From the NCBI GenBank assembly GCA_001574975.1, contig KQ965776.1, positions 124,001-188,000 on the forward strand: a DNA stretch of 64,000 nt, read 5' to 3'. Of the stretch, positions 1 to 61,240 are shown piece by piece (positions within the stretch are counted from its first letter, which is position 1; every line of letters begins with the position of its first letter). The translations under genes were made by a program, and so were the position numbers. This DNA is from Gonapodya prolifera JEL478. Taxonomy: Eukaryota; Monoblepharomycota; Monoblepharidomycetes; Monoblepharidales; Gonapodyaceae. Under the pieces are notes generated by a model. That model ran no database searches and was not told the DNA's origin. It saw only the letters and a list, made by a program, of their open reading frames with translations.

Positions 1-78
1 TGTGTCAAGTGTGACTGTCGAATGTGCACGTCATGAAAATACCGGGAACCTGTGTAATGAGTGTCGGCACCCCTGAGA
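1..78 (+). pseudogene. C-terminal tail of a Cys-rich family gene, cut by window edge, one frameshift
   Basis: Frame 1 reads CVKCDCRMCTS then stops. Moving by one base after position 35, frame 2 reads ENTGNLCNECRHP and stops near 78. The intact Cys-rich protein at 23787-24509 ends with KCAKCDCLMCPRC and GNVCNRCR, so the two pieces match its tail in the same order. One base appears to be missing in the second Cys codon of the CTSC equivalent. I infer that this is the end of a paralogue whose body lies left of the window. It is either decayed or carries a one-base sequence error. Confidence 0.6.
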
Positions 79-456
79 TGATGGACGAACACGGTAGGTT
101 TTGCTATTTTTTAGTTGCATTGGATGCATAACCCTCAACGCGAGGCTATCTGAATACAGAAAACTGACGAATCGAAAGCTACTTCATTTCACATGTCCCG
201 GATAATAGCAGTAGGTAGAGTATATGTGTACATGTTCGATGTCTCCATGAGCGTGTGCTGTTGAACCATCATTGCTAGCGCCTTGAGGAGTGGAGTGCTG
301 AGTACGGGGCACCCAAAGAGAATATCAAACTTATTTCAGTCATATGTGTCAGTTCCGTTTATGCTTCCGTGAGGGCGTCGCTTCGGATGAAGCGATCAAC
401 ATTATAAATTGCAGTCAAAAAGACTGCAATTTACCATCCAACCCTCCAACAGAAAA
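79..456 (+). other. intergenic, upstream of amidase
   Basis: No open frame with recognisable protein content. It should hold the amidase promoter. I could not pick a TATA box or operator with confidence. Confidence 0.4.
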
Positions 457-12541: not shown

Positions 12542-14661
12542 TTACATGACAACTCGTGAGACACCCTTCTTCCTTTGCTTCTTGAGCTCCCGCTCTCTCT
12601 CCTTTTCCGCCAACTTGCGTTCGGCTTTACGTCTTTCAGGAAAGAGTAACGTCAAATCGGCCCGCTGTGCTGTGGTATCGACAACCCTCGGAACTCACCG
12701 TTCCTCAAGAGGGAGTTGCGCGAGGCGCTCCTCCTCGGCCTTTTTCAGATCTGCCTTGGATTTGTATTGCTCCTTCCAGAAGCAGGCGCGATTGAATCAA
12801 CGGCACGTAATTAGGCAGGCTGGCGAGACGCTCACCTCTTTACGCTTCTCCTCGGTCTTTTTCGCTATGTCCTGGAAGGCAGCGTCGCGGGCCTTCTTGA
12901 CTTTGCTTTTCGTCTGAAGATTGAGTGCGCCATTTCGTTCATCAAAAACATCGAATGCGAAAACGGTACCTGGCTCTACTCACATCATTCAGCAGGAGCG
13001 GTCCTCTGCCCTCATTGCTCCATTTGTCCACGCAGTCCAGAACGAACTCGATCTGCTTGATGCACATCCGACGGTCGGACTCGCCGTCTTCTGTCTTCGC
13101 CGGTCCAGAAGCCAGCGACGGCGGGAGGCGGAAAACGGCAGTCAGGGTCGGTTTGAACGAATCAAAGGCTTCGGTACTGCCACAAACACCAACATCAACA
13201 CCAACAGCAGAAAGTTCAGATTTCACCTCCACCACGCCTGCCACACGCGTTCACTCACTCGACAGGTCTAATCTTGGGCACGTCCGACAGAGTGAGTTCT
13301 TCCAGCCACAAACCCCCGGGCCCGTCCTTTGTATCCATGAGCTTGAAAAACTCCTTGACGGACTCGTCCTTCAGGATAAGGTCGGAATACTCGGAAGACT
13401 CTGTTTGCAGTGTGTGCGTGGCGGGGTTGATCGTGGGGTGGGTCCGCGTCCGGGGGAACGTCTGCACTCGAGCAAAACGGTGAAAAGAGGCCACAGCGCG
13501 CAAAGGTGGAGGGAAAGACGCACCATGTCGAACCTCTCGTTCGCCTTCGCGGCAAGTTTGTTGGACATGATGGAGAAAACGAAGTCATCGCCGGTGTCTT
13601 TGGGAAGCTCCACAGTAAGTTCCTACGGATCCCCGAAAAGTGGGTCACATTTTTTCGTTGGACCTGCACGAAGGCGCCACGTACCAGAGTATCGTAGGCG
13701 GGGAACAACCAGTTGTAAATGAACCCGAGCACGACGTCATGGCGCGGGAGAAGCTGGTGAGTTTGTGGGATATGGAGGCCCATTTGAGTAATGATCTCAT
13801 ACCACGAACCAACACCTCCCTGTGCCGCTCTCACACCCCCACCAGGCACGCCAAACGCACTTTGAGCCTTCCCAACACGCTGACGACGCTCTTCCTTCCA
13901 CTTGCCCAGAAGAGGAACTCCCTGTCCGACTCGACCATGAGCGTGTGGGCTTTGCCGTCACCGATTTCGGCAAAGTTGAGGGACCAGACTGAGTGCGTTG
14001 TGCGAAGCCTGGTCGGGAAAGCGTGGTGGGNNNNNNNNNNNNNNNNNNNNNNNNNNNNNNNNNNNNCCCCCCCCCCCCATCGCGCCAAACCAAGTCACCC
14101 CACGTAACTTCACCCACTCACCACTCGGTCGCGAACGTCGAATTCTTTCCCCTTCCCAGCCACCACACGACGCCATACACGATCAGCACTGACACCGCAA
14201 CAGCATCAAACCGCCAATCCTGTGCCACGGCCGTCGCGAACATTCCTATTCTCCCCGATTGGCCCGAGCCGGGTGTGCCGGGACTAGCGCCGCCTGCTGC
14301 GGGTGGCGGGAAAAAGGAAGAAAAGAGGGACCCCAAGCCGGAGCTGGGCGCGGGTGGGGGGGTGTAGTAATCATCTGTGCGAGGTGGGGGTAGGTTGAGC
14401 GACAGAGAAAGGCAGCCACTAGGCCCATCAGCGCTCATGAAAACGCGCGATTGGGAATCCATGGCAGAGCGGGCATCTGCATCTTCCGCGTCCATCTTCC
14501 GTCTTTCCCCTCCATCGGGCCGGCCCCGCGATTGCCAACATCACCGCACCATCTTCGTCCTCGTCGTCGAATTCGGCCGCGTACGCAACTCGACACAACA
14601 CGGTGGCGATGATCGCCAGTGCGAGCGCGATTGCCAGCCAGGAGCGTTGGGAGCGGCGCAT
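12542..14661 (-). CDS. CCDC47: CCDC47-like ER membrane protein (PAT complex, DUF1682)
   Basis: CCDC47 is part of the ER PAT chaperone complex for multipass membrane proteins. The start MRRSQRSWLAIALALAIIAT with VAYA-AEFDDEDED gives a signal peptide followed by an acidic lumenal stretch. An in-frame ATG at 14703 would add 14 residues and is less signal-like. A transmembrane helix VAVSVLIVYGVVWWLG follows near 14190. Then come SDREFLFWASGRKSVVSVLG, DVVLGFIYNWLFPAYD, VELPKDTGDDFVFSIMSNKL, and CIKQIEFVLDCVDKWSN, matching DUF1682 order. The end is the typical basic coiled tail (KKARDAAFQDIAKKTEEKRK; AERKLAEKERERELKKQRKK) closing KGVSRVVM. An assembly gap (14031-14066) interrupts an intron or exon edge, so one junction is unresolved. 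Confidence 0.82.
14031..14066. other. assembly gap (36 N) next to a C run
   Basis: Thirty-six N are followed by about twelve C. It lies within the CCDC47 gene, between the exon with the transmembrane helix and the next downstream exon. A poly-C tract probably stalled sequencing. Confidence 0.95.
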
Positions 14662-19240: not shown

Positions 19241-19520
19241 CTGCAGCTCGGCCGCGCAGAGTGCGTGCGCTTGGCTTGCGATGGCTCGGGATATGTCCCC
19301 GCGAGTCGCACCTGATGTGGATGCTGCGGTCGGCTGGCCGCAGGAACCCCCCCGCAGCAGACACGTCGTTCAGCCGGCCACCCACCCACTCCGAGTTCAG
19401 CCGCACACCAGTCTGTGCCGCGGTCCACGCTCACTCTCCGACGCCGCTTGCGACCTCCACGGCGGTCAGGACTGACTGACTGTCTCCGCCGAAGAAACAA
19501 TAAACAACACCCTCACACTC
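19241..19520. other. upstream region of HAD gene
   Basis: GC-rich and open in several frames, but without recognisable motifs. It presumably holds the HAD promoter. Confidence 0.35.
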
Positions 19521-19660
19521 TCTCACATTGCACTCGAAGCTCTGGCGCCGTCGTCTCCTTCGAGCCAGTTCGTGCCATCACCACACTCCCCTCCACCTCA
19601 CGCTCTTTTCGCCGCTTCGTGACGTCGCCGTCCGGCTGGGAACGCTTGGACTTTTCAGGG
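19521..19660 (+). pseudogene. F-box relic of the Cys-cluster F-box family
   Basis: SHIALEALA (19521-19547) and then, one frame over, EPVRAITTLPSTSRSFRRFV and GWERLDFSG (to 19660). The gene at 55357-56346 reads IADIPLETLE, LPVRALLRFSSTSRSC and GWERLDLSD in the same order. The match covers the F-box plus the start of the following repeat, then ends abruptly. There is a frame change between the two blocks and no downstream LRR or Cys cluster. I infer a truncated, frameshifted copy. Confidence 0.6.
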
Positions 19661-19699
19661 CGACAACCAAGTCGCTCCACATGTACCCATCATCCCCTG

Positions 19700-20363
19700 A
19701 TTAGGCATGAGATTTGGTAGTGCGGGACGAGAATGGACGCAAGTCCACCAACGAGGAGCGTAAAGAATTCCTGCGCTCTCTCCTTGGTGGGGGACGTGGT
19801 GCGGACGGAGCTGGTGATGGTGATGACGATGAGGCTAATGAGGGTGCAGATGCCGAGGAGGAGACTACGAGTGGCGAATACCTCCTTGACATCATTGCCC
19901 GGAACGATGAAGAGAAAGGAGCTATTCCGGGCCATGGATCGGGAGATGGAGGAACGCGACGCACTCGAGTGGAATGCACGAGGACAGCGCTCGAAGGGAC
20001 GTTTCATTCAGCCTGATCAAGTCCCCGAAATCGTTTTGAAGGATCAGCGCAAGGTTGTCAAAGTCGATAACCCGCACACCTTTGGACGTGGTAGCCGCAA
20101 GCGTGAAGGCGCGACGCTCAACGAGAAAGATCTCGCGAAGAAGCAGTGGGAAGACTCGGAGGATGGGAGCGATGAGGGAGAGGCCAGCGACGGAACGGAA
20201 GACACACACCCTGTCAGGCGACAAGGGGAAGCGCAAGGATGATGGAGACAACGCTAATCGCAAGCGCCGATTCCAGGAACTGGCAGAGAAGTTGCTGCAG
20301 GTGGTGGTGGGCTTAAGATTGAGGGTTGAAGCGCGCACGACATATCCAAAAATTAATCTTTGA
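19700..20363 (+). pseudogene. SNF2-type chromatin remodeller fragment (SnAC region), frameshifted
   Basis: Reads NGRKSTNEERKEFLRSLLG, GEYLLDIIARNDEEK, then in a second frame KELFRAMDREMEERDALEWN and GRFIQPDQVPEIVLKD. This is the order of the SnAC (Snf2 ATP-coupling) segment that follows the helicase in Snf2/Sth1/Brahma. The frame change falls at the AAA run in gaagagaaagg (about 19914-19920). A third frame continues GDKGKRKDDGDNANRKRRFQ to 20363. No helicase motifs (DEGH box, QxxGRxxR) occur upstream, and a different relic lies there. I infer a partial duplicate, not a working remodeller. It could be a small expressed gene only if the frameshift is an error. Confidence 0.7.
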
Positions 20364-23786: not shown

Positions 23787-24509
23787 CTACAACATTGAAC
23801 CATCAACAGAGGAAAGCCGACACCGATTGCACACATTTCCGTTGTTGCCATTACATCGTGGGCACATTAGACAGTCGCACTTGGCACACTTCTGCGTATT
23901 CACCAAACAATCGGTGCAATGGATAGACCTGCACCTGGCCGGAGACTCTCGAGTGCCGCATAAGGTTTTGAAATGCAAAGAACAGAGTGGTCCAATGTCG
24001 CATTTCTGGCATCTGATAGGGTTCGACGCCCAATTCGCAATCGTCGAAAATCTCCTGCATACAGCATCGACGTCGCATCCAGGAAATGCACACGTGTCCC
24101 AGCTCAATTCGCACTCTCTGCAGTAGTACCCGGATCCATCGCATCCACGACATTTGCAAATGTGATCTTGATAGCGGATGGAACTGAACGGAGGAATAGG
24201 CAGAGAAGTTCAACTGCTGCGGTTGTATGCATCGTCATCATGGTCATCGAATCAAACTACTTTTCAGAAGGAAGACTAGCTCGAGAGACGAGATGATGAT
24301 TATCACAACACATTTCAGCAACACACAATCCCCACTCACCTCCGAGTGCCATACTGCAGCGGTGACACCTGAATCGACTCGTTTAAATATCATATTTTTT
24401 CTCCCAAACCCAATCACTGATATAGCTACGTTGCTCCACTCACCTCAATCCTCGCATATGATGTTTGGTCTTTGCAACCGTTACGTCCCGTCATTTTCAT
24501 GTGTGACAT
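23787..24509 (-). CDS. small cysteine-rich protein of the F-box-associated Cys-cluster family
   Basis: Unknown function. A three-exon model keeps frame: MSHMKMTGRNGCKDQTSYAR|IE, then VSPLQYGTR, then SSIRYQDHICKCRGCDGSGY. The product is about 165 residues with some 27 cysteines, mostly in CxxC pairs (CKCRGC, CREC, CQKC, CTDC, CAKC, CPRC, CNRC). It looks like serial treble-clef or RING-like zinc sites. It ends RLSSVDGSML. Related clusters occur at the left edge and at 55357-56346, where an F-box and LRR precede the cluster. Here no F-box is found before the start. It could be a standalone zinc-binding partner or a reduced copy. The start codon is 87 bases from the divergent ETF-beta start. Confidence 0.6.
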
Positions 24510-52878: not shown

Positions 52879-55356
52879 TTCCTAGCAAAGGCGGTGGAGT
52901 CAGCGCAGGCACAGTCGGGAATGTGCGATGACAGCCCCGTGACACGCGCATCGCATCCGCGCCCGAGCGTCGCGTGGTGCAGGCGAGTCCACGTGTGAGT
53001 CAGCGTGTTGTTGCGCGCTGCTGTCGTGTCTGTCTCCCTCGCGCCAACCCGATCCGTTCGCTTTCCTTCTCCACCCGTCCAATGCGAGTCTGCTCAGCTC
53101 CCACTACCATCTTGCCCAGCTCTTTCATTCCCCCGCCTTCCCCTTCGGCTTCCTGTTCCCCCTTGCCCCTGGCCCACACCCGGCCGGCTCACCTCGCACC
53201 CAAGCACACCGTCCAGCGTCTCGCTCCCGTTGGTAATCCCGTGCTAGTACTGCTCCTCCTTTTGTCACGGTATCTCTTCTCTTCCACTCCTTAATCCTGG
53301 CTACGGGTCCCACCTTGTTTTTGGAAGGGAAAGAGTGACCGATCCGAGTGTGCACTACCCTGAAACCACTGCGCAACGACCACGACCTGCACGTTCACAT
53401 CGCAACGTCAAACTCTTTCTCTCCAGGCAGACATTCATTGCAGGTGTCATTCTATTATAATTTATTCTATAATTTTCTTCCCGCGTCTGAGCAATTGGGC
53501 ACCCTTCGCTCGCCCGCGACAGCAAGGCCAACCGTGGTCTCGGTCGGAAAACGTATCCAAAATCTCCCACCGTCTCGGGTACACACTTATTTTTCTGCCT
53601 GCCACACCATTTTCGGAGCAGTCATCACGTCAAATGACGAGTGACCGGATCCTCGTCTGCATCCCTGGACCCCTGCGCTCCCCTTCATGAACCTCCACAT
53701 CTCTAAACTCCACCCCTCGCTCTTCTATCCCCTTTTTTACAGCTCCCCCCTTCCTCTCCCCTTCCTTCTTCCCTCGTGGAATCCCCGTCCCGTGTCTGGG
53801 TGGCAAGTGCTCGCCGGCTCTCTATCAATTGTGTTGTGCCTTTTGTCCGTAGAAAGTGGACCAGTCTCCTTTTGCCCCGTTTCTTTTGCCCCATGAGACC
53901 CGCGCCGTACGCACGTCCCTGCTCGCCCCCTCTCTCACCCCGTTTGATGGCCCCTCTGTTGCCCTCCGTCGCTCTCCTGTTCTCGCACCACCACTCTCCC
54001 ACCACCCGTCACCCATCTCCATCTCCCACCAACTTACGCCTTCCACCCACTTCCACACCCTGACAAATTAATACAAAATCCCACCCTCTTGCGCATCCGG
54101 CTGATCCAGCCTCCGTACTCCGCCATATTCCGCCACCGTACGGCCCCATCTCCCACCAGTGTCCACGTTCAGGGTGTGAGCGTAATCTCGCGTACGTTTT
54201 CTTGGCGGGGGCAGGAGCGTAGTAGGCCAAGCTGCACCCCTTGGACGTAAACGGGGCTGTGCGCGCGCCACGCTGTGGGCTCCTGACACTTTGGACTCGA
54301 ACGAAAGATCCATATTTGTCTGCCTTACACATCGCTAGGGTAAATGCAATTCGCGCCGCCGCCCCCTCCGCGGAAAAGGGCATCTCGGGTCGGCTCGGGA
54401 ATATTCGACGAAAGTCTTTGATCTTGTACTTGGGATAGGAACGAGCCAAAGGACGGGAAAGGACACTCCTGGAGTGATCTGGGGACTCGCGCTCCGTCCT
54501 GTTCCATCGGTGTGAAACCCCCCGCGGAGATTCGGAGTCGCTTCCTGTGCCATACCCTCCTCCTCCTCCACTCCTGCTATCGATATCACGCGTCTCCGGC
54601 TTCGTCCCCTCATTTGCATTCTGTTCGTACCGAGTCGCGGACCAACTCTGACATGGGCCAAGTGGGTGAGAACCCTCGAAGCGGTGTGGACGCCCCTGAC
54701 GGAGTACTAGGGCGTGGGTGGTTAGGGGGTTTGGGGACGGATGAGAGGGGTGAGGCGAGAGCCATGATGCCACGGGAGTGCGTGGGGGTGGCGGTGTTGG
54801 GGTTTGGCGAGAGTCATGTATTCAGCAGTTCACCAGTACCCCGTATTTGACCTGCCCTCACACGCAGATCCTAAGCCCCCTCGTTTGGACCACTGCTTGT
54901 AAACGATGCCGGAGGGGGGGTTGGGCATTTCAACACAGTGCGCACGCGCAGAGCACAAACGCGGACAGGCACTTCGGCGGGTGGTGTCGCCCAGCACCGA
55001 ACGAGCCTTCGCACCTGTAGCGTCACGTTTCCTGTTCAGCTTCGAAAGATAAACTTCAAAATCACAGTTCGGTATGTCAACAGATTATTGTGGAAATTGA
55101 ACATCAATCACATCTATGTGGGCAATATAAATCCACTGCGATGACAAAAAGATATTGTCTTCCGTCGCGTCTAAACCAAGAGACAGAACCCTCCAAAAAT
55201 AGTTGAGCTTCAATCCACCGCCGAGTAATCTTTCTCTCATTCCTGTCCTTCCAAAAAATGTTCACCGAAAGTATCACAGAGATCGCAAACGTTCGTACCA
55301 GGGAATCTCACATATCCCGTTTGGAACTCGCACACAAACCAACCACAACCGCGGCA
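52879..55356. other. gene-poor 2.5-kb region
   Basis: Upstream of the Gln-rich gene the plus strand is C/T-rich (53000-54060). Long minus-strand frames (54009-54773) begin without ATG and show no motif. I see no gene, RNA or mobile element here. It may be the 5' leader plus intergenic DNA. Confidence 0.35.
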
Positions 55357-56346
55357 TTAAATGATGCTACTATCGCCATTGAGCGCACAGTCGCGGCAGA
55401 CGAACGCCGGACATGATGGCTCCGAGCACAACTGTTTCGAGGTTGAGTCACCGCAATGTGTTTTGCATACTCGAAAAAACTTCCTACAGCCAGAACACAT
55501 AAGCTTTGTGACATGAGCAGTTGTCGTCCCTTCGCAATCAGGCGTGTCCCCAGCAAAATCGCAAATGTTGCATATCCAAGATTCCAGGCAGGACCAGCAC
55601 CGTCGATTGAGAGTGTAATGGCGACGGCATGGCTCAGGTCTCTTCTCAAATCCCGTTGCGGACTGTCTGCTGCAACAAAATTGCAATCGCAGCTCTTGCA
55701 CGTGGCTGGTCTAATAGTAGCGTTTGGGTACATCCATTGAAGCCGGAGCAAGATTCTGGCCACGCCATCAAATGACACTTGTCCTTCAATGTCAGTGCAG
55801 TTCGACAAATCGAAACTCCGCAGTGAGGAATCTAAATTCCAATGTCGAAAGCTGTTGTAAAGCGTCAATTCAAGATTTTCAAGATCGACCTCTCTGCACT
55901 CCCGGAATGAAAGTCTCTCAACATTTGGCAGCTGCAGAGCTTCCAGCACCATATAGCTGGTACTCCACGTCCCATCGAACGTCATTCCCTTCGCCACCAT
56001 CTCCGCCGTCTCCACACCACAATTCAGCGAAGGGCGATCCACCTCGCATTTTGAGCCAAGCACTCAATAAACTGCGCATCTGTTAAACTGGGGCACAGGT
56101 CTGAAAGGTCCAAGCGCTCCCAGCCAGCAGGTATTGTGACGATTCGGGGCAGGAGCGTGATGTGGAGGAAAACCGGAGGAGGGCGCGGACAGGGAGAAGG
56201 AGGATAATTTTTTCGAGTGTTTCAAGGGGAATGTCGGCGATCGAGGTGCTTCCAATTGCGCAATTTGGTGGAAGAATCGGGAACGAGTGTTTCGAATTGA
56301 TGTCAACCGTCACCAGTCGCGAATGAAAATGGAATGTCACTGCCAT
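55357..56346 (-). pseudogene. F-box / LRR / Cys-cluster protein gene, apparently frameshifted three times
   Basis: Would encode a substrate receptor of an SCF-type ubiquitin ligase. From ATG 56346 (MAVTFHFHSRLVTVDINSKH), the F-box is IADIPLETLEKIILLLPVRA with LLRFSSTSRSC. In a second frame, IVTIPAGWERLDLSDLCPSL with TDAQFIECLAQNARW starts LRR-like repeats. In a third frame, SLNCGVETAEM, LEALQLPNVERLSFRECREV and LRSFDLSNCTDIEGQVSFDG continue them. The C-terminal Cys cluster begins CKSCDC. After another frame change near the A4 run at 55677-55680 it continues CRRHYTLNRRCWSCL, CNICDFAGDTPDC, MCSGCRKFFRVCKTHC and CPAFVCRDCALNGD. No GT-AG intron fits the first two changes. Decay is most likely, but indel errors in short homopolymers are possible. 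Confidence 0.6.
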
Positions 56347-56399: not shown

Positions 56400-56747
56400 T
56401 CCATTCAACCAACTTGTCCGAAAACAGTGAAAACTTAGACTTGGACGAACTGCCGCTCAGCTAAACCAAGCCCACCCCCCGTTCAGCTCAAAAAACAGCG
56501 CCAAAGGTCAATGTACCGTCTATCGTCTAATGAACCGCGCGTGCTCTGCTCTGCTCATGTCTCATGCCTCACGCTCATACCAACCTCCATTCGACCAACT
56601 CGTCAGAAAATCGCAGTGAACACATATGTTGGACAAACAGCCAGCCTAAACACTACCCCACAGCTAGGAAAACACCTAAACAACGTCTATAGTCTATATA
56701 TCGTCTATCGTCTAAAGAAGTGCGTGTCCTATGCTCCTGCCTCGTCT
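56400..56747. repeat. imperfect 186-bp direct repeat, two units
   Basis: Unit 1 (56400-56585) and unit 2 (56586-56747) start tccattcRaccaact. They share in order cagtgaa, a ttggac block, ctaaac, cgtctatcgtctaa and a TGCTCTGCTC-like end. It lies upstream of the F-box gene. No coding potential. It could be a solo fragment of a dispersed element. Confidence 0.7.
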
Positions 56748-60953: not shown

Positions 60954-61240
60954 GGTTTTGGCCGCACAACCACGACCTTAAATATGCGGTGTTCTGGATT
61001 CCACTGCGGTTGGAGCGCGGTGGGTCTCTGGGGACGCTACTTTGCTGAAGAGACTCCGCATTCGCGCACTTTGCGTCACAGCAAGGGACACGAGTGTCCA
61101 GTGCTACCAGGGGGACTCTCACAGTTTTCTCGCCCCCTGGTGTATCATGGCAAGAGAAGGTTTTGCCGCACAACCACGGTCTTAAACACGCTGTGTTCTG
61201 GTTTCCACTGCTGGCCAAAATGCGGTGGGTGCTCTTGGGA
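60954..61240. repeat. two copies of an 80-bp repeat with about 205-bp spacing
   Basis: Unit 1 (60954-61034) and unit 2 (61159-61239) both read ttttg-ccgcacaaccacg, cttaaa-a, tgttctgg-ttccactg and gcggtgggt-ctc-gggg. Read on the minus strand they fall in one open frame (60892-61218), where the peptide SGxQNTAxLRxWLCG occurs twice. Whether that frame is translated is unknown. Confidence 0.7.

Follow-up and report, generated by a model that had tools for sequence, protein, structure and literature searches.

The minus-strand locus at 56346-55240 of the window (the whole stretch of 64,000 nucleotides that was analysed, positions 124,001 to 188,000 of contig KQ965776.1 of Gonapodya prolifera JEL478) raises two questions: to which kind of protein does it belong, and is it a working gene or the remains of one? 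It is called locus A here, and three other places in the window, loci B, C and D, carry pieces with which it can be compared.

Layout of locus A

The order of the parts along the minus strand is F-box, LRR-like stretch and cysteine cluster, with the F-box beginning from an ATG at 56346. The features are:

56149..56238, minus strand: F-box, first ~30 domain residues (PF00646)
56087..56146, minus strand: F-box end and first LRR-like unit RIVTIPAGWERLDLSDLCPS, in the second frame (match to locus B)
55635..56027, minus strand: LRR-like stretch in the third frame, ending in CKSCDC (two LxxLxLxxC units)
55360..55623, minus strand: cysteine cluster, first part (13 Cys in 82 residues)
55357..55359, minus strand: in-frame TAA within the cysteine cluster (from the sequence)
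55240..55356, minus strand: cysteine cluster, last part (CRGC...CDLC), in the same frame beyond the TAA

Three parts had been assigned to this locus in a preliminary description. The F-box was found by the Pfam model PF00646 above its cutoff (21.9 bits against 20.5), and the 13-Cys cluster is present; the LRR part is recognised by its pattern and has no profile match. The PF00646 match covers only profile positions 2-31 of 43 and thus ends at the first frame change of the locus. The F-box continues in the second frame as RIVTIPAGWERLDLSDL. The stretch at 56087-56146 shares 65% identity with locus B over 20 residues (tblastx); in B it is in the same frame as the F-box. The F-box and LRR-like part of locus A is spread over three reading frames in turn, and another switch leads into the cysteine cluster. 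With these three frame changes and the in-frame TAA, the locus as assembled has no single intact reading frame.

The LRR-like stretch has two strict LxxLxLxxC units. Two such units turn up in 1.7% of 20,000 shuffles and, among 258 ORFs of at least 100 aa, in this one alone, but 21% of shuffles satisfy a looser pattern; both patterns were picked after inspection of the sequence. None of the Pfam LRR models matched locus A, so that the LRR call is one of pattern. A single-sequence structure model of the stretch has alternating strands and helices, at a pLDDT of 37.8, too low to bear on the fold.

The cysteine cluster had been given a left boundary at 55357, which is too short because the cluster runs on past the TAA to 55240. 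It reads NGDSSII, then TAA, and then contains five more Cys in the unchanged frame. This stop had gone unmentioned, as had a frame change within the F-box of locus B. The TAA could be spliced out by any of several GT-AG pairs whose length is a multiple of three; a consensus donor is present in none of them, and most would delete Cys residues. The cluster had no match in Pfam or NCBIfam. Even at an E value of 1, clusters A and C had no Pfam match, and hence no IBR/ZBR profile, to which they may nevertheless be distantly akin. Zinc binding and a treble-clef fold are suggested solely by the CxxC spacing and are unproven. The single-sequence model of cluster C has a mean pLDDT of 34.6 and is uninformative on the fold. 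Searches of the PDB by sequence gave no matches for the LRR piece, the F-box and cluster C, and no related solved structure. The sole PDB match of cluster A, thrombospondin-1 at E 0.36, is at chance level and was rejected.

Just upstream of locus A, at 56400-56736, there is a diverged direct repeat of ~150 nt with 70% identity and a spacing of ~185. The strongest self-match of the window is another direct repeat (60954-61034 and 61159-61240), with 81% identity over 83 nt.

Related loci in the window

The three other loci are:

19550..19672, plus strand: locus B, second F-box half and first LRR-like unit (tblastx to A)
23790..24161, minus strand: locus C, uninterrupted cysteine cluster (one open frame of 124 aa, 22 Cys)
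1..85, plus strand: locus D, end of a C-like cysteine cluster, truncated at the window edge and containing a frame change

Pieces of the domain order do recur at four loci, as had been proposed. The full order of F-box, LRR and Cys cluster is found at one locus of the four, A alone; B has the F-box and the first LRR, and C and D have only the cluster.

Loci A and B have in common the unit GWERLD(F/L)S, which in B is in one frame with the second half of the F-box. The start of the F-box of B (HIALEALA, near 19517) is in another frame, so that the frame changes inside the domain. With the F-box-like model PF12937 locus B scores 15.1 bits, below the cutoff of 24.3, over profile positions 15-46 of 47. 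It matches locus A at 75% over 69 nt in blastn (E 1.6e-4) and at E 1.2e-5 in tblastx. Over two ungapped blocks (117 nt) that were chosen by the match, the two loci differ at 15, 8 and 21 of 39 positions each at codon positions 1, 2 and 3, a third-position bias that is expected if both formerly evolved as protein, under past selection. As judged from these matches, A and B surely represent one family.

Directly behind locus B, at 19711-20239 on the plus strand, lies an orphan piece of the tail of an SNF2-type remodeller. Its SnAC domain (PF14619) scores 23.6 bits, short of the cutoff of 27, and it has a frame change with no bridging intron nearby. The families listed for the scanned frames included no SNF2 helicase. 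Locus B and this tail may be parts of one gene-fragment graveyard.

Locus D matches the end of C at 71% over 89 nt in blastn (E 1.6e-4) and at E 2.7e-4 in tblastx. The latter value is weak by itself because the same run, with the filter off, gave plainly spurious wrong-frame matches at 1.7e-4 as well. The kinship is carried by the blastn match and by the in-frame correspondence of CVKCDCRMC and CAKCDCLMC. Differences between C and D fall on 3, 7 and 8 of 25 positions each for the three codon positions over two blocks, without a clear bias. By sequence, C and D are likely to be one family.

The link between the two pairs is less firm. The alignment of clusters A and C scores 69. Of 2000 shuffles under each scheme, 26 attained this score with full shuffling, 151 with the Cys positions kept and 218 with the loops permuted; the apparent similarity is marginal. 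Since the A-C link is weak compared to the A-B and C-D matches, kinship is graded from A-B through C-D to that across the pairs, and a common family of A/B and C/D is only suggestive.

Could the cluster be a chance reading rich in Cys, and the gene a plain FBXL fragment? The failure of the cluster to match any profile or structure would agree with this. The window was scanned for places with at least 9 Cys and at least 3 CxxC in 70 residues, and six passed. Four were low-complexity Pro/Ala/Gly/Cys frames; the remaining two, which have regular Cys pairs, were clusters A and C. This result, together with the motif kept between C and D, makes a chance reading very improbable.

A second alternative is that a decayed F-box-LRR gene happens to be followed by an independent gene or module, the cluster, with C and D representing the normal state of the latter. 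Clusters C and D are without F-box or LRR, and a search of the window's frames upstream of C found neither; moreover, the cluster in A is in a different frame from the LRRs, and the A-C similarity is weak. However, in A the frame that holds the LRRs reaches CKSCDC and continues without a stop next to the cluster. C lacks an evident start, and the window boundary falls within D, so that both may be truncations. A separate module is rather improbable.

Intact members of the family were found neither within the window nor in the non-eukaryotic collections. Viral contigs were searched with the F-box, the LRR piece and clusters A and C, and contigs of prokaryote genomes with the LRR piece and the A/C alignment; no relative was confirmed in either. 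Tblastn searches found no match to cluster C in plasmids or to cluster A in phages. As all these collections are of non-eukaryotic sequences, the absence of relatives from them says little. Titles in one open-access library on F-box proteins in chytrids and early-diverging fungi revealed nothing on such a family.

Frame changes, introns and assembly

The three frameshifts that had been ascribed to locus A could be introns or assembly errors. No GT-YAG intron of 45-300 nt bridges junctions 1, 2 or 3 of A, or the junction of B, at up to 15 codons of slack per side. At the break in the F-box of A the two frames meet within ~5 nt of the sequence shared with B, which leaves no room for an intron. 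With 20 codons of slack, junction 1 has one poor intron (donor 3/6) that would delete the shared sequence. Junction 3 can be bridged when wide anchors are used, by a 71-nt candidate whose donor score, 4/6, equals that of DRC7 junction 1. A laxer test (introns of 35-400 nt, any AG) gave 1, 0 and 28 candidates at junctions 1, 2 and 3, respectively. Thus, no frame change of the locus is bridged by a nearby intron, although the third is bridgeable with wider anchors.

The window has matches to the conserved genes DRC7, kinesin, ATG2, ETF, HSP20 and RhoGEF, a set that points to a flagellated eukaryote (Rfam families and tRNA genes both number zero). Eight frame changes in four of these genes (DRC7 3, kinesin 2, ATG2 2, ETF 1) served as a control. 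At six of the eight, a GT-YAG intron with a donor of at least 4/6 joins the frames at no more than 5 codons of slack: 63, 65 and 73 nt in DRC7, 62 nt at kinesin junction 2, 92 nt at ATG2 junction 1 and 300 nt in ETF. Of 1000 random places, 86 have such a donor by chance at 110 nt, and 199 of 1000 have one at 224 nt. Under the same limits as for the six, kinesin junction 1 and ATG2 junction 2 have no bridging intron. These frame changes, at 35431-35167 and 63064-63011 on the minus strand, lack a single good GT-AG intron and could be either two introns or assembly errors.

Because two of the eight control junctions are unbridged, assembly error is possible in locus A. Locus A could then be a living gene into which the assembly has introduced the frame changes and the stop, except perhaps at the LRR-Cys junction, where a real intron may lie. 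In addition to the two unbridged controls, the runs of N in the assembly (14031-14066 and 56763), the lean of the A-B differences to third codon positions and the bridgeable junction 3 all speak for a living gene. Against it, three frame changes and a nonsense codon fall within ~1.1 kb, whereas most changes in the conserved genes can be explained as introns, and B and D, which are independent places, are also broken. A living gene is therefore unlikely, and the conserved-gene control favours real decay in A. The codon usage of locus A scores low against host genes, which fits decay, but would also fit a fast-evolving or Cys-rich gene.

The proposed ancestor and known F-box proteins

That locus A belongs to an F-box family with a Cys-rich tail, and is a broken member of it, has good support. 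Decay is supported by the in-frame TAA and by the PF00646 match in A, which breaks off at the frame change; the remaining half of the domain is the one present in B. Locus A is probably a pseudogene, the degenerate copy of an F-box-LRR gene whose C-terminal block is Cys-rich. Further decayed or truncated pieces would be B, which surely belongs to the same family, and C and D, which probably do. The intact ancestor was most likely a substrate receptor of an SCF ubiquitin ligase: its F-box would have bound Skp1, and its LRRs and Cys block, the latter probably stabilised by zinc, would have selected the substrate. At present locus A most likely has no function. What the window shows is duplication and decay in the past; a family that is still expanding, as had been proposed, is hypothetical.

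It is tempting to go further and to see here a lineage-restricted family of F-box-LRR receptors with a new zinc cluster, an undescribed substrate module, which multiplied under birth-and-death turnover in this flagellated eukaryote. This is conceivable but doubtful. The architecture of locus A is unusual, seen once and broken; the evolutionary pattern is ordinary. Should there be intact members, the F-box receptors would gain an unusual arrangement, the Cys block behind the LRRs, and a fast-evolving receptor set in a group for which literature searches in one open-access library gave nothing on the subject.

Emi1 is FBXO5, an F-box protein that is not known to have LRRs. Its zinc-binding region is described as being of the IBR type (PMC4944252). 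Locus A resembles it as an F-box protein with a zinc-binding region, putative in A, and has no match to an IBR profile.

In FBXL10/KDM2B and in FBXL19, an F-box and LRRs occur together with zinc modules. FBXL proteins in general, as outlined in PMC7729025, bind Skp1 by the F-box and take the substrate by the LRRs. Locus A is similar to these SCF receptors in having an F-box and then LRR-like units, but its units are few, weak and without a profile match, a Cys block stands behind them, and the frame is broken. In FBXL10/KDM2B, JmjC, CXXC and PHD domains are placed ahead of the F-box and LRRs in the account of PMC5746411. The likeness to locus A, in which both the LRRs and zinc are putative, lies in the presence of all three kinds of module; the difference is that the Cys block of A is behind the LRRs and not ahead of the F-box. 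The CXXC and PHD Pfam models matched none of the pieces of locus A. The fusion of a zinc module to an F-box receptor, which the preliminary description had considered unusual, thus has a precedent, whereas the order of the parts differs from it.

The F-box superfamilies of plants are described as rich in pseudogenes, the numbers of which track family size (PMC3030570). They are comparable to the present loci in being confined to a lineage and in the abundance of dead copies, although the organism and, in locus A, the C-terminal domains are different. Locus A as it stands is a decayed copy of the sort that F-box families commonly leave.
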